This document shows, piece after piece, positions 9,759 through 40,455 of a stretch of DNA of 56,692 bases. Below the pieces are notes generated by a model, which had not been told where the DNA came from, ran no database searches, and worked only from the letters and a program-made list of their open reading frames with translations. The first letter of the stretch is position 1, and each line of letters starts with the position of its first letter. Position numbers and translations under genes: made by a program. Source of the DNA: Methanolobus profundi (GTDB lineage Archaea > Halobacteriota > Methanosarcinia > Methanosarcinales > Methanosarcinaceae); the NCBI RefSeq assembly GCF_900114835.1, contig NZ_FOUJ01000006.1:145064-201755 (forward strand), written 5' to 3'.

Positions 9759-11435
9759 ATTACAATTAAAGAGCAGAACAGGACAGAAAGGCGCAACAGA
9801 AGCCTCCATATCCTCATATGCATCACGCTGGCCCTTACATTACTGACCACGTGTGCATCCGCAGAGGAAACTGCCCATCAGAAGATAAGGGTTGGGGTCT
9901 ACCAGAACGACCCACTGATATCTTTTGATGATAACGGAACAGCCGAAGGCCTTTACATTGACATCCTGAAGAATATCGCTTCAAAGGAAGGATTGGAACT
10001 TGAATTTGTGCCCGGTACTCTAGACCGGTCACTTGCCAGACTGGATAATGGCAGCATAGACATAGTACCGGCCATACCCTTTACACCTGAGATGAATGAA
10101 CGCTTCTTACTAACGACAGAAGCAGCATTCACAGACTGGGGTGTTGTCTATACATACAGTGACTCGAACATCAGTTCCATGAATGACCTTGGAGGAAAAA
10201 GGATCGCCTACTATGAAGATATCTTTTTCGAGAGCTTCAATGCCAGTCCAGGAAATTCCAATATCAGTTATACTTTCGTGAAGGGAGAGAATTATCAGGC
10301 GATCTTCGAGATGATCCAGAACAGAGATGCTGATGCAGGTATCATAGCCCGGTCCTATGGTAACGAACATGAATCACAGTATGATGTTAAGAAAATATCT
10401 TTTGTGATATCCCCGACAGACATGGTATTCGCATTGCCCAAAAATGCAGACATGAATATCTCGATACTTATCGACGAGAACATACGCCAGATGGTGATCG
10501 AGGACGGGAAGATACATTACATCACACCGGAAACGGAAACAACTGACCTGAACACATGGGAGAGTCCTTCATGGCTCAAATTCTCAGTGAGCATCGGCGG
10601 GGGACTGCTGTTACTACTTGTTATACTGAGCCTTATTCTGCGCAATAAGGTCGATGAGAAGACCTATGAGCTCAATTCCAAGAACAGGGAACTTGAGGTC
10701 GAAATCAGGGAGAGGAAGATCGCAGAAGAGAAACTAAAGCAATATTCTCTCGAGCTTAAGCATTCGAACGAACTTAAGGACCTGTTCACAGACATACTGC
10801 GCCATGACCTCATAAATCCTGCAACTGTCATCAAAGGATATGTTGAATATCTAATGGAAGTTGAGACAGAAACACAGAAGAGAGAAGCTGCCAGTGCAAT
10901 TGAAAGGAACAACAAGAAGCTTATCTACTTAATAGAGAATGCAGCAAATCTGGCAAAGCTTGAGAATATGGATGAGCTTGATTATGAGTCACTTGACCTG
11001 AAAGAGGTAATAGAGGAAGTACTCGATAACCTGAAGCCGAAACTTGATGAAAAAAAGATAACAGTTAGCTTTGATCAGGATGGCGGATACCCTGCAGAGC
11101 TTAATGCAACGATAGAAGATGTATTCTCAAATCTAATAGGCAATTCTATAAAGTACAGTCCTTCGGGAACAACTATCGCAATAAAGATAAATGACCATGA
11201 AGATGCATGGGAAGTAGCAATAACCGATCAGGGAGAAGGAATACCGGATACTGAGAAACCGTATATCTTTGACAGGTTCAAGAGAGCACATAAAGTGAAT
11301 GTTAAAGGCTCCGGACTTGGTCTTGCTATCGTAAAACGTATAATCGAACTACATGAAGGAAGCATTGAAGTAGAGGATGGACCTGACGGGAAAGGAACTA
11401 CTTTCAAAGTAACCCTGAAAAAAGAGAAGATCTAA
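9759..11435 (+). CDS. Sensor histidine kinase with solute-binding-protein sensor domain
   Basis: The open frame begins after TGA 9756-9758. It runs through a signal peptide (ILICITLALTLLTTCASA), an SBP_bac_3-like extracellular domain (KIRVGVYQNDPLISF to about residue 265), one TM helix (about 275-295), a coiled coil, HisKA with phospho-acceptor H349 in RHDLINP, and an HATPase domain (NLIGNSIKYSP, DQGEGIP, GSGLGLAIVKR). The first ATG/GTG/TTG in frame is TTG 9993, which would delete the signal peptide and much of the sensor domain. The true start is therefore either a rare codon (ATT 9759 or 9765) or an upstream ATG (9751, another frame) joined by a frameshift. The ligand is unknown; amino acids are typical of the fold. 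No response regulator is adjacent. Confidence 0.8.
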   Translation: MTIKEQNRTERRNRSLHILICITLALTLLTTCASAEETAHQKIRVGVYQNDPLISFDDNGTAEGLYIDILKNIASKEGLELEFVPGTLDRSLARLDNGSIDIVPAIPFTPEMNERFLLTTEAAFTDWGVVYTYSDSNISSMNDLGGKRIAYYEDIFFESFNASPGNSNISYTFVKGENYQAIFEMIQNRDADAGIIARSYGNEHESQYDVKKISFVISPTDMVFALPKNADMNISILIDENIRQMVIEDGKIHYITPETETTDLNTWESPSWLKFSVSIGGGLLLLLVILSLILRNKVDEKTYELNSKNRELEVEIRERKIAEEKLKQYSLELKHSNELKDLFTDILRHDLINPATVIKGYVEYLMEVETETQKREAASAIERNNKKLIYLIENAANLAKLENMDELDYESLDLKEVIEEVLDNLKPKLDEKKITVSFDQDGGYPAELNATIEDVFSNLIGNSIKYSPSGTTIAIKINDHEDAWEVAITDQGEGIPDTEKPYIFDRFKRAHKVNVKGSGLGLAIVKRIIELHEGSIEVEDGPDGKGTTFKVTLKKEKI

Positions 11436-28245: not shown

Positions 28246-28749
28246 TCAGATAATAGCTAACAGACCCATTCCTGCCAGAGTGACAACGCTGACTATAAGT
28301 CCAGCTATAAGGACACCTGAGAATATAGCAGGCAATGAATGCCGGAACTTTATCCCGAATACAAAAGCTGCTGCACATCCTGTCCATGCACCAGTTACAG
28401 GTAACGGCACAGCAACGAACAGGGTTAGAGCAAGAGTACCATATTTTTCAAATCTTTCCGAATGGTTACGCTGGGTCCTGCCAAAAAGCCATGAAAAGAA
28501 CTTCTCAAATATAGCATATCTTCTAAGATATGTCGAGACAGGGTCCAGGAACAGAAGTAATGGGATGACAGGCAACATATTGCCCATTACAGCAAAGATG
28601 AACGCGGATACCGGATGCATCCCATATACACCCAAAGCAATGGGAATGGCACCCCTTAGTTCGAATACTGGCAGTGCCCCTATGATCATGGTAGCAAGCC
28701 AGTGAGGGAAAGAAGAAAGTAATTCGACTACCTGTGCTTCAAGGCTCAA
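28246..28749 (-). CDS. Small membrane protein, COG2426 (putative small multidrug export) family
   Basis: The protein has 167 residues with four to five hydrophobic segments and the conserved PVFELRGAIPIALGVYG motif, then PVIPLLLFLDP and FVAVPLPVTGAWTGCAAAF. The duplicated Arg/Gly and Pro/Gly motifs recall the DedA-like re-entrant loops. Transport function is only suggested by the family name. The start is TTG 28749, whose first two bases overlap the TGA stop of rfcS. GGAG 5 bases upstream supports it, so it is translationally coupled to rfcS. Confidence 0.8.
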   Translation of the reverse strand: MSLEAQVVELLSSFPHWLATMIIGALPVFELRGAIPIALGVYGMHPVSAFIFAVMGNMLPVIPLLLFLDPVSTYLRRYAIFEKFFSWLFGRTQRNHSERFEKYGTLALTLFVAVPLPVTGAWTGCAAAFVFGIKFRHSLPAIFSGVLIAGLIVSVVTLAGMGLLAII

Positions 28750-29708
28750 TTGGACTCCTTACCTGACAAGGCAAAGTGTGCCAGAAGACATTCAAGCTGT
28801 ATCCTTTCATTGGCACCTTCCGTAAGTCTGAAATCGATCTCTCCGATGACGTCGATAAGTTCAACCATTTTCTTTTCAGGAATATCCACATCGGACATCG
28901 CCCTGTAGATCTGACCTACAACATCCTCTCCTGAAAGACCCTGCTCCAGCAGAAGAACATCAAGATGTTTCCTTGATGCTATGAAATTACCTGAAAGTGC
29001 TGTCTCGATGAGCTCTTTGACCTGCTCGGGACGAGCTGTTGCAGTGATCTTGTATATGGCATCCTTGTGGATGGTATCTGCAATAAGTGCTGCAGCCTGA
29101 AGAGCATTTATAGCTTTTCTCATATCACCCTGTGCAACATACTTGATGGCGTCCACACCATCATCTGCAATGTCCAGACCCTCGTTCTCTGCCACAAAAC
29201 GAATACGTTCAGCTACAGATTCATCAGAGAGAGGACGGAACCTGTAAACAGCACATCTGGACTGAATTGGCTCGATTATCTTGGATGAATAATTACATGA
29301 AAGGATGAAACGACAATTATTGGTGTAACGTTCCATTGTACGCCTGAGGGCTGACTGAGCATCGGATGTCAGTGCATCGGCCTCATCAAGGAAGATTATC
29401 TTGAAATCAGCGCCACCTATAGGAGTGGTCTTGGCAAAGTTCTTTATCTTCGTTCTGACAACATCGATACCACGTTCATCGGACGCATTGAGCTCTGTGA
29501 AGTTCTCACGCCATGAATCCTGAAAAAGCTCGCGTGCTATTGAAACAGATGTAGCTGTTTTCCCTACTCCGGGAGGACCTGAGAACAGGAGATGTGGAAG
29601 GTTCCTTGTACTTATGTACGACTTTAACCTTTCTACAGCCTCTTTCTGGCCTACCACGTCATCAAGTTTAAAAGGCCTATACTTTTCGATCCATATCTCT
29701 TCTTTAAT
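28746..29708 (-). CDS. rfcS: Replication factor C small subunit
   Basis: This is the clamp-loader AAA+ ATPase that loads PCNA with RfcL. Walker A is GPPGVGKT, Walker B LDEADALT, and the SRC motif QSRCAVYRF is present. The first ATG/GTG/TTG in frame is GTG 29657 (MVGQKEAVERL), but the codons before it encode KEEIWIEKYRPFKLDDV, the conserved RfcS N-terminus with its KYRP motif. The likely start is ATT 29706-29708. GGAGGG at 29715-29720 stands exactly six bases before it. An in-frame TAA lies 13 codons further up, with only CTG and ATA as other near-cognate options. From ATT the protein has 320 residues, the family's usual length. Confidence 0.9.
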   Translation of the reverse strand: MKEEIWIEKYRPFKLDDVVGQKEAVERLKSYISTRNLPHLLFSGPPGVGKTATSVSIARELFQDSWRENFTELNASDERGIDVVRTKIKNFAKTTPIGGADFKIIFLDEADALTSDAQSALRRTMERYTNNCRFILSCNYSSKIIEPIQSRCAVYRFRPLSDESVAERIRFVAENEGLDIADDGVDAIKYVAQGDMRKAINALQAAALIADTIHKDAIYKITATARPEQVKELIETALSGNFIASRKHLDVLLLEQGLSGEDVVGQIYRAMSDVDIPEKKMVELIDVIGEIDFRLTEGANERIQLECLLAHFALSGKESN

Positions 29709-38252: not shown

Positions 38253-38795
38253 CTATTGCAGACTTACCTCATGAAGGGTCTCATATACAGGACCCTGCGG
38301 GGTTAGTACGCTCTTTTTAAGTTTAACAGAATCGACCTGCATCTCCCCTATATCAACATCCTTCAACTCATCGAGCAGTTCAAGGAAATCTGCCTTCTTC
38401 TTCTTGGGAAGGTACTTTACCCGTGCAAGGGTCGCATGTGCGCTGAAATTGTGCAGGTTCGGTTCGAGTTCGAACGAAGAAAGAGAATCGTTGATCGACC
38501 CATAAAGGTCAGCGAAGTTCCCTTCACATCCAAGCCATATAACCTTTGCAAACTTTGGTTTCGGAAATACACCGAGCCCTTTTACATGACCTTTAAAGGG
38601 TTCGCACTTCACCGAATCAAGGGCTTTGGAAATATCAGGGATCTTTTCATCAGGGACCTCACCCAGAAATTTCATTGTAATGTGAACTATACCGGGATCT
38701 ACAAATTTGAACTTAAAATCATCGAACTTTGACTGGACATCGGCTATATTATCATGCAACTCCACAGGGAGATCTACCGCAACAAAAGTTCTCAC
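38253..38795 (-). CDS. thpR: RNA 2',3'-cyclic phosphodiesterase (ThpR / LigT)
   Basis: The protein has 180 residues with the two HxT motifs of the 2H phosphoesterase superfamily (HITM and HATL). RTFVAVDLPVELHDNI is the typical N-terminus. It opens 2',3'-cyclic phosphates on RNA ends. I start it at GTG 38795 because GGTGAT lies seven bases upstream; a longer reading from TTG 38810 would place the ribosome-binding site inside the gene. It converges with apbE and diverges from the diadenylate cyclase gene. Confidence 0.9.
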   Translation of the reverse strand: MRTFVAVDLPVELHDNIADVQSKFDDFKFKFVDPGIVHITMKFLGEVPDEKIPDISKALDSVKCEPFKGHVKGLGVFPKPKFAKVIWLGCEGNFADLYGSINDSLSSFELEPNLHNFSAHATLARVKYLPKKKKADFLELLDELKDVDIGEMQVDSVKLKKSVLTPQGPVYETLHEVSLQ

Positions 38796-38921
38796 CAAAC
38801 CTATCACCAATTACCATTTATATTGGAGACATAAATTAATATCGCTACTGAGCAAGTTTATTTATAAAATAGCAGTATATAATATACTACTATCAGGTAG
38901 TTTTATTGCTGCTATATAACT

Positions 38922-38927
38922 GAGGGG
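38922..38927 (+). promoter_or_regulatory. Ribosome-binding site deciding the dacZ start
   Basis: GAGGGG is five bases before CTG 38933 and more than 230 bases before the first ATG of the frame. It overlaps the in-frame TGA that ends any upstream extension. Confidence 0.6.
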
Positions 38928-38932
38928 ATAAT

Positions 38933-39805
38933 CTGGACAGTACAGAAGTAGTTGTCAATACTGCTATAAGGCTCGCAGAAGAACTGCGTTCAAAGGCCAT
39001 AATAATAGCAGGGGAACTCAATAGTAACATAATAGAGACATCCATCCCTGTCTACTTTGCAAGCCGCAAACAAAAGAACCTTATCGACCATCTGGTAGCA
39101 AGCAGCAGAACAAAGGAAGAAAGGTCAAAAGAAACGCTGGACAGGATCCATCAACAGGCTACAGGGATGATCGAGCACGTAGAAAATGCCTCTGCAATAG
39201 AGTTCATAATGGACGAAGTAGAAGAAGGCACGATCATTGGCATGATCGAAAGCAAAGATTCCTATGCGATCGTTGTCCATGACCTTTCTGATAATCAGAT
39301 GGTCAGGACACTGAAAGAATGCGAGGAAAGGATATCTGCAGAAATGCTTCGTGTCATAATGAAAGTGGCCTTTGACATATCCAATACCGGCCGTGAAGGA
39401 AAACAGATCGGCACGGCATTTATCGTTGGAGATGTGGAAGAGGTCATGATGCGCTCTCACCAGATGATCCTTAATCCATATACCGGCCAGGAAGATGAGG
39501 ATAAGAACATACTTGATAAAAAGAACTGGGAATCTGTGAAAGAGTTTGCTCAACTTGATGGTGTGTTCGTCATCTCAGAAGAAGGGATGATAGAGGCTGC
39601 CGGCAGATACCTGGATGTCGATGCAAGGGATATATCTGTAGAAAAAGGACTTGGCGGGCGTCATGTCTCTGCTGCTGCTATCACAAGAGATACTGTATCG
39701 ATCGCAATAACAGTTTCAGAATCCGGCGGAGTTATCCACATATACATGGATGGAAAGGAACTTCTCCACATAGAATCCGCTCAAAGGGCAATTCGTCTGA
39801 ATTGA
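38933..39805 (+). CDS. dacZ: Diadenylate cyclase (DisA_N domain, DacZ-like)
   Basis: The protein has 290 residues when started at CTG 38933. An N-terminal helical/alpha-beta region (VNTAIRLAEELRSKAIII) leads into the DisA_N domain: LDGVFVISEEGMIEAAGRYL near residue 209 and KGLGGRHVSAAAITRDT near 243. Both fit c-di-AMP synthases, although canonical DGA/RHR read DGV/RHV here. An N-terminal reading from ATG 39167 would remove 78 residues of clearly coding sequence. No ATG, GTG or TTG precedes it; TGA 38921-38923 is the upstream stop. GAGGGG (38922-38927) stands five bases before CTG 38933, so a CUG start is likely. c-di-AMP in archaea is linked to osmotic balance. Confidence 0.85.
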   Translation: MDSTEVVVNTAIRLAEELRSKAIIIAGELNSNIIETSIPVYFASRKQKNLIDHLVASSRTKEERSKETLDRIHQQATGMIEHVENASAIEFIMDEVEEGTIIGMIESKDSYAIVVHDLSDNQMVRTLKECEERISAEMLRVIMKVAFDISNTGREGKQIGTAFIVGDVEEVMMRSHQMILNPYTGQEDEDKNILDKKNWESVKEFAQLDGVFVISEEGMIEAAGRYLDVDARDISVEKGLGGRHVSAAAITRDTVSIAITVSESGGVIHIYMDGKELLHIESAQRAIRLN

Positions 39806-40083
39806 TGAGTAAGCAAAATATCCATTTGATCAACACTTTCCCCTTGTAACATGGTAAGATGATTGATGGATATGCCAATTTTTCAACATATTCTATTTTT
39901 CTTTGCATTGCCACTTATTCGGCACCGTGCAGTTATAATAAAAATTAAGCATCCGCTTCCAACAAAAATAAAGAAGTTCGATCGTAATACACCGAGAATC
40001 TTTTCTATTACCATACAGCATTAATATAGCTTCATCCCATACCATAAAAAGAGAACCTAATTTATGTATTGGGAGTGATACCT
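39806..40083. other. Intergenic region with inverted repeat
   Basis: No gene is visible in these 278 bases. ATATCCAT (39818-39825) and ATGGATAT (39866-39873) form an inverted repeat around a 40-base spacer just after dacZ, possibly a terminator. The remainder is AT-rich leader of the glutaredoxin gene. Confidence 0.35.
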
Positions 40084-40455
40084 TTGAATGTTAAAAAGAT
40101 CATAGACAGTGCTCAGAAATTTGTCCAGAGCAGTATGGAACCAATGGGAAATGATACTGATAAGAAGACAGATGAAAAGGCAACTAATATAGAGACAGAT
40201 GCTTCAGGCAAAATAGTTACAATATATGCCCTGAGTACCTGCCCCTGGTGCAAAAAGACCAGGAAGTTCTTCACAGAAAAGGGAGCAACTATCGATTATA
40301 TAGAGTACGATAAAGCTGATGAAGAAACACGTAAGCATATAGAAGAAGACTGTAGATCCTTTATGGATGAACTGGGCTTTCCTGTTGTAAAGATCGATGA
40401 AGAAGCAGTGGTCGGTTACAACACAAAGAAATATTCGGATCTCCTGAACAAGTAA
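40084..40455 (+). CDS. Glutaredoxin-like protein
   Basis: The protein has about 123 residues. A charged N-terminal extension (about 1-45) precedes a thioredoxin-fold domain with the redox motif TCPWCKKTRKF and the cis-Pro motif GFPVVKID. It probably reduces disulfides or adducts in the cytosol. TTG 40084 is preferred over TTG 40069, because GGAGTGAT lies between them at correct spacing for the second. Confidence 0.85.
   Translation: MNVKKIIDSAQKFVQSSMEPMGNDTDKKTDEKATNIETDASGKIVTIYALSTCPWCKKTRKFFTEKGATIDYIEYDKADEETRKHIEEDCRSFMDELGFPVVKIDEEAVVGYNTKKYSDLLNK

Follow-up and report, generated by a model that had tools for sequence, protein, structure and literature searches.

The bacterial genes infC and pcnB carry conserved near-cognate AUU start codons. 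The dacZ gene of the methanogenic archaeon Methanolobus profundi described here resembles them in that a Shine-Dalgarno sequence accompanies a near-cognate start codon and in that the amount of the product presumably must be limited. It differs from them in that its start is conserved as a weak codon (UUG or CUG) and not as one particular codon, with no evidence of autoregulation, and in that it belongs to another domain of life, with other initiation factors. Start codon selection in archaea has been reviewed (PMC7531240), and the initiation factor aIF1 reportedly discriminates against start codons other than the canonical ones (PMC8211752). Ribo-seq of Methanosarcina mazei, a member of the same archaeal family as Methanolobus, is reported to find CTG starts for 5% of the small ORFs lacking annotation (PMC11456600). 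CUG initiation thus has Ribo-seq support in this family, but the M. mazei ORFs are unannotated and encode up to 70 amino acids, whereas Methanolobus dacZ is a conserved gene encoding an enzyme of 290 residues. Among annotated genes of 36 genome groups, a change from UUG to CUG was reported for 1 of 2,468 ancestral UUG starts (PMC5622118). In Haloferax volcanii, whose DacZ has the same order of DacZ_A and DAC domains as the Methanolobus protein, dacZ is described as essential and its overexpression as lethal (PMC6741144).

The gene is located in a stretch of 56,692 nucleotides (hereafter the window). Its open frame (38924-39805, plus strand, 293 codons) begins directly after an in-frame TGA. 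We propose that dacZ is very probably translated from a CUG codon at position 38933 into a full-length protein of 290 residues, and that this CUG derives from a UUG at an inherited start site (Table 1). Between the upstream TGA and the first in-frame ATG, at offset +78, no ATG, GTG or TTG occurs in frame. A GAGGGG block is separated from the CTG by five bases (ATAAT), which is a working Shine-Dalgarno distance. Both features had been pointed out in a sequence-only reading of this DNA and were confirmed. At the codon frequencies of this genome (ATG 2.72, GTG 1.51 and TTG 0.76%), the chance of 77 codons without any of the three is about 2%, so the gap, taken alone, is not strong evidence; the orthologues described below are. 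Nearly all 26 Methanolobus genomes compared carry GAGGG or GAGGGG at the position of the purine block, and one carries AGAGGA. In the proposed mechanism, the GAGGGG block would position the ribosome at the CUG on a leadered mRNA, the initiator Met-tRNA would pair with the CUG with a mismatch at the first base, and full-length DacZ, probably with methionine as its first residue, would be produced. A lower output than from AUG would be expected, in view of the effect reported for aIF1.

Table 1. Coordinates of the features of the dacZ locus in the window.
Feature	Position	Strand	Remark
TATA box TTTATAAA	38861..38868	+	conserved motif upstream of dacZ
In-frame stop TGA	38921..38923	+	closes the dacZ frame at its upstream end
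Shine-Dalgarno-like GAGGGG (GAGGGGAT)	38922..38927	+	conserved among Methanolobus
Proposed CTG start codon of dacZ	38933..38935	+	orthologous start column in relatives
dacZ, diadenylate cyclase	38933..39805	+	290 aa plus stop TGA; Pfam PF21754 and PF02457
DacZ_A domain, residues 1-119	38933..39289	+	predicted by the model; pyruvate-kinase C-terminal-like fold
First in-frame ATG, codon 79 (Met79)	39167..39169	+	inside model helix 61-92

Upstream of dacZ lies a divergent gene that we take to be thpR (38253-38810, minus strand), and downstream of it a presumed glutaredoxin-like gene (40069-40455). The promoter motif TTATTTATAAA is found at about the same distance from dacZ in all 16 genomes of the Methanolobus clade that includes this one (clade A). 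Promoters of M. psychrophilus are reported to lie about 19-22 nt from the transcription start site (PMC5378194). Transcription of dacZ is expected to start near position 38888, which would give a leader of about 45 nt. A leaderless start of dacZ was rejected, as the TATA box is too far upstream. A palindrome, AGTATATAATATACT, is located at 38874-38888, just 3' of the TATA box, and is partially retained in relatives.

The identification of the product as a diadenylate cyclase, also made in the sequence-only reading, is supported by two Pfam domains scoring above their cut-offs: DacZ_A (PF21754; residues 6-118, E = 2.8e-30, 105.5 bits versus a cut-off of 28.3) and DAC (PF02457; residues 153-275, E = 9.2e-19, 67.6 bits versus 27). 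A Foldseek search matched the DAC region to DisA and CdaA (best E = 8.7e-4), and a PDB sequence search with the whole protein gave no match. The protein scored 114.5 bits against NCBIfam NF041371, the haloarchaeal DacZ equivalog, far below the cut-off of 430, which argues only against membership in the haloarchaeal subfamily; it differs from haloarchaeal DacZ in this respect and in its CUG start codon. Taken together, the gene is best supported as encoding a DacZ diadenylate cyclase. In the structure model (mean pLDDT of 69, built from 17 sequences), a first helix begins at residue 3, residues 22-26 and 40-43 are strands, and residues 61-92 form a further helix. Alignment of residues 1-119 with the C-terminal domain of pyruvate kinase using VIA-align gave a Z score of up to 10.2 over 92 residues, with an rmsd of 1.9. 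The folded DacZ_A domain is thus predicted by the model to start at residue 1.

These domain limits bear on where translation begins. Met79 is the first standard start codon in frame and is the start that remains for a standard gene caller, in which case the frame upstream would be untranslated. We consider this extremely improbable. Because Met79 falls within the helix 61-92, initiation there would break DacZ_A and cut off most of it, residues 1-78 being lost from a domain spanning 1-119. In addition, the codons upstream of Met79 appear to evolve as coding sequence: changes in codons 2-78 fall mostly at third positions, with counts at positions 3/1/2 of 36/10/8 relative to G012 (the nearest relative), 25/16/5 to G019, 39/11/9 to G004 and 31/14/13 to G006. 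The relatives start at the column of CTG 38933, and in G019 the ATG of Met79 is missing altogether.

The dacZ gene is present in all 27 Methanolobus genomes, of which 26 include its 5' end (G009, with the N-terminus missing, was left out). In a gap-free alignment of these 26, every orthologue uses the column of CTG 38933 as its start, which reads TTG in 14, ATG in 10 and CTG in two, and the following residue is D or N in most of them. A standard codon at this position in relatives had been named beforehand as speaking against a CUG start. Such a codon was indeed found in 24 of the 26 genomes, yet its position confirms the site and shows that the CUG is the derived state. The CUG start itself, as first proposed, is upheld by the common start column, by the lack of a standard start and by the same codon in G019. 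We therefore read CTG 38933 as an inherited start site with a derived codon, a conclusion drawn from comparison of the aligned genes.

In the second genome with CTG, G019, the first in-frame ATG, GTG or TTG of dacZ is codon 92. G019 also bears on the question of whether 38933 could be a sequencing or assembly error for T. The nearest relative G012 reads TTG there, as such an error would suggest, but G019 is an independent single-contig assembly with CTG at the same place and with its own surrounding differences, making an error very unlikely. The two CTG carriers (this genome, G000, and G019) form a sister pair in the tree with moderate support (SH-aLRT 89), nested in clade A, whose other 14 members have TTG. 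A single change from UUG to CUG, by T-to-C substitution in the common ancestor of the two species, would explain this most simply.

Extending the comparison to the family, dacZ was found in 108 of 111 genomes with one match per genome; G028, G107 and G110 gave no match in this search. Two further genomes (G072 and G075), whose dacZ has no N-terminus, were left out, and the tree was built without 9 of 106 rows, namely L027 and L116-L123 (eight rows from two distant genera). Among the 97 family rows with an N-terminus, the start column reads ATG in 69, TTG in 14, CTG in 2, ATA in 3 (all Methanosarcina), ACG in 1 and GTG in 1 (L075). In the remaining seven rows, from genus g7, the dacZ start lies three codons upstream of the column, and one of them reads ATA there. 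The column is ATG in all 20 genomes fetched from other families of the order. Protein conservation is 0.79 after the column versus 0.31 before it. Given the prevalence of ATG in the family and the outgroups, the start site appears to be old, with ATG most simply the ancestral codon; the change from UUG to CUG would then have occurred at a site going back to an ATG ancestor. Two other routes to the protein were considered and rejected: initiation at the further in-frame CTGs in the gap (+17, +53 and +68), where no relative starts, and readthrough of the stop from TTG 38906, the upstream frame not being conserved.

Near-cognate codons at the dacZ start are also found elsewhere in Methanosarcinaceae. 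Of the three Methanosarcina with ATA at the column (L077 of G074, L093 of G081 and L098 of G096), G074 has no in-frame ATG, GTG or TTG from the upstream stop to offset +23, and in G081 and G096 the Shine-Dalgarno sequence contains a GTG in frame at -3. In G030 (L066), codons -1 and 0 are CTG ACG, either of which may be the start, and its sister G031 (L059) has CTG ATG at the same codons.

Two explanations for a weak dacZ start, both compatible with initiation at CUG, can be weighed against these data. That a weak codon limits c-di-AMP synthesis, as was suggested from the sequence, is plausible. A start kept weak by selection (UUG, then CUG, AUA or ACG), excess c-di-AMP being toxic, is in line with the TTG or CTG found in 16 of 16 clade-A genomes, none of which has ATG, and with the near-cognate starts of the three Methanosarcina and of G030. 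The lethality of dacZ overexpression in H. volcanii likewise suggests that a low DacZ output is tolerable or useful. On the other hand, ATG prevails at this column in the family and in every outgroup, and exchange of UUG and CUG is also seen in two genes unrelated to c-di-AMP synthesis (described below), one of which keeps weak starts through the clade as well. We therefore regard such selection as possible but doubtful. It is fairly probable instead that little DacZ is needed, so that a T-to-C substitution in a UUG start that was weak to begin with was tolerated as a near-neutral event. CUG starts in functionally unrelated genes of the same genome fit this view, as does the published count of UUG-to-CUG changes, which marks them as rare but real. 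The recurrence of near-cognate dacZ starts in several lineages may go a little beyond what drift alone would give.

We scanned 503 genes (659 kb of this genome) for non-standard starts. Ten of them score higher with a non-standard start, and dacZ is the strongest case. Of five candidates beyond dacZ, three hold up (rfcS, trkH and an ABC permease); a sensor kinase candidate at C7 410612 aligned poorly with its relatives, and the fifth is the gene at 9759 of the window, described at the end. The gene that we take to be the potassium uptake gene trkH (L271 12964-14394; G000 C7 52964) starts with CTG in this genome, and the 24 loci read comprise 1 CTG, 13 TTG, 7 ATG and 3 GTG; weak starts are likewise kept through the clade. 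Potassium transport is a target of c-di-AMP in bacteria. The other gene, presumably an ABC amino-acid permease (L289 6582-7271; G000 C7 406582), could be aligned at nine of 11 loci and has CTG in two (this genome and G012), TTG in six and GTG in one. With regard to selection for low DacZ output, these comparison genes appear to behave like dacZ.

As a control within Methanolobus, we used 25 syntenic families from the neighbourhood of dacZ, covering up to 21 genomes. One family gave no start column, and 15 passed the filter, dacZ included. The 14 passing families other than dacZ gave 264 cells, of which 5 were non-standard (ATC 2, ACG 1 and AAT 1 in rqcH; GAA 1 elsewhere), all with a standard codon at most 15 codons away. 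No CTG start besides that of dacZ was found in the 25 families. In a Methanosarcina control of 29 families, 15 of which passed, non-standard codons were found in dacZ (ATA, 3/20), rnfC (CTG, 4/8) and thpR (CTG, 1/20). For rnfC, for thpR and for two of the three ATA codons of dacZ, the Shine-Dalgarno sequence itself includes a GTG in frame at -3, so the true start is unsure. The rnfC loci concerned (L146, L147, L148, L152) belong to a set with CTG (4) or TTG (4) after GGAGGTG. Over the whole genome, the combination of a Shine-Dalgarno sequence and CTG occurred 8 times near starts versus 32 times internally, with no enrichment near starts, indicating that CUG starts are few. CUG starts thus seem to be rare, yet not private to dacZ, and dacZ would be one case of a family-wide tolerance of near-cognate starts.

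A second near-cognate start is located in the window, in a gene that we take from its motif to be rfcS, encoding the replication factor C small subunit (28749-29708, minus strand). In this genome, no standard start is found ahead of the conserved IWIEKYRP motif, and rfcS appears to start with ATT after a GGAGGG Shine-Dalgarno sequence. Following the GGAGGG block, the codon is ATT in 22 of the 27 Methanolobus genomes, ATA in 3 and ATC in 2. Thirteen of these genomes contain no ATG, GTG or TTG from the upstream stop as far as the motif. In another 13, an ATG or TTG stands at -12, lacking a Shine-Dalgarno sequence (the codon there is CTG in this genome), and the last one has a distant TTG. In 30 genomes from 13 other genera of the family, the codon reads ATA in 14, ATT in 9 and ATG in 7, and no in-frame standard codon precedes the ATA or ATT in 14 of the 23 genomes concerned. 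In Methanosarcina and its near relatives (L262, L263, L266 and L270), an ATG at -5 is in frame and overlaps a GGAGG, and in G031 (L265) the ATG is out of frame.

A tentative proposal, less likely than not, is that a few genes of Methanosarcinaceae form a group kept under near-cognate starts (CUG, AUU, AUA, ACG) with strong Shine-Dalgarno sequences, acting as lasting brakes on translation. The clearest members would be dacZ and rfcS, the latter resembling infC with its AUU, AUA or AUC across most genera. In the titles and abstract openings of the literature searched, we found neither a CUG start of dacZ nor an AUU start of rfcS. CUG, AUU and AUA lie outside the set of codons (ATG, GTG and TTG) called by the usual gene finders, so the annotated versions of both genes in these methanogens are probably too short or begin at a wrong codon. 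A dacZ annotated from a standard start would miss most of its first domain, and studies of signal sensing by DacZ_A would be misled by wrong starts. The weak starts, if functional, could offer a simple handle on the dosage of a second messenger in archaea.

Elsewhere in the window, a gene at 9759-11432 (plus strand) encodes a signal-peptide-like N-terminus, and its frame opens at an ATT (9759) right after a stop. Its start is unsure: some relatives read ATT or ATC, and in others an ATG is found five codons further upstream.
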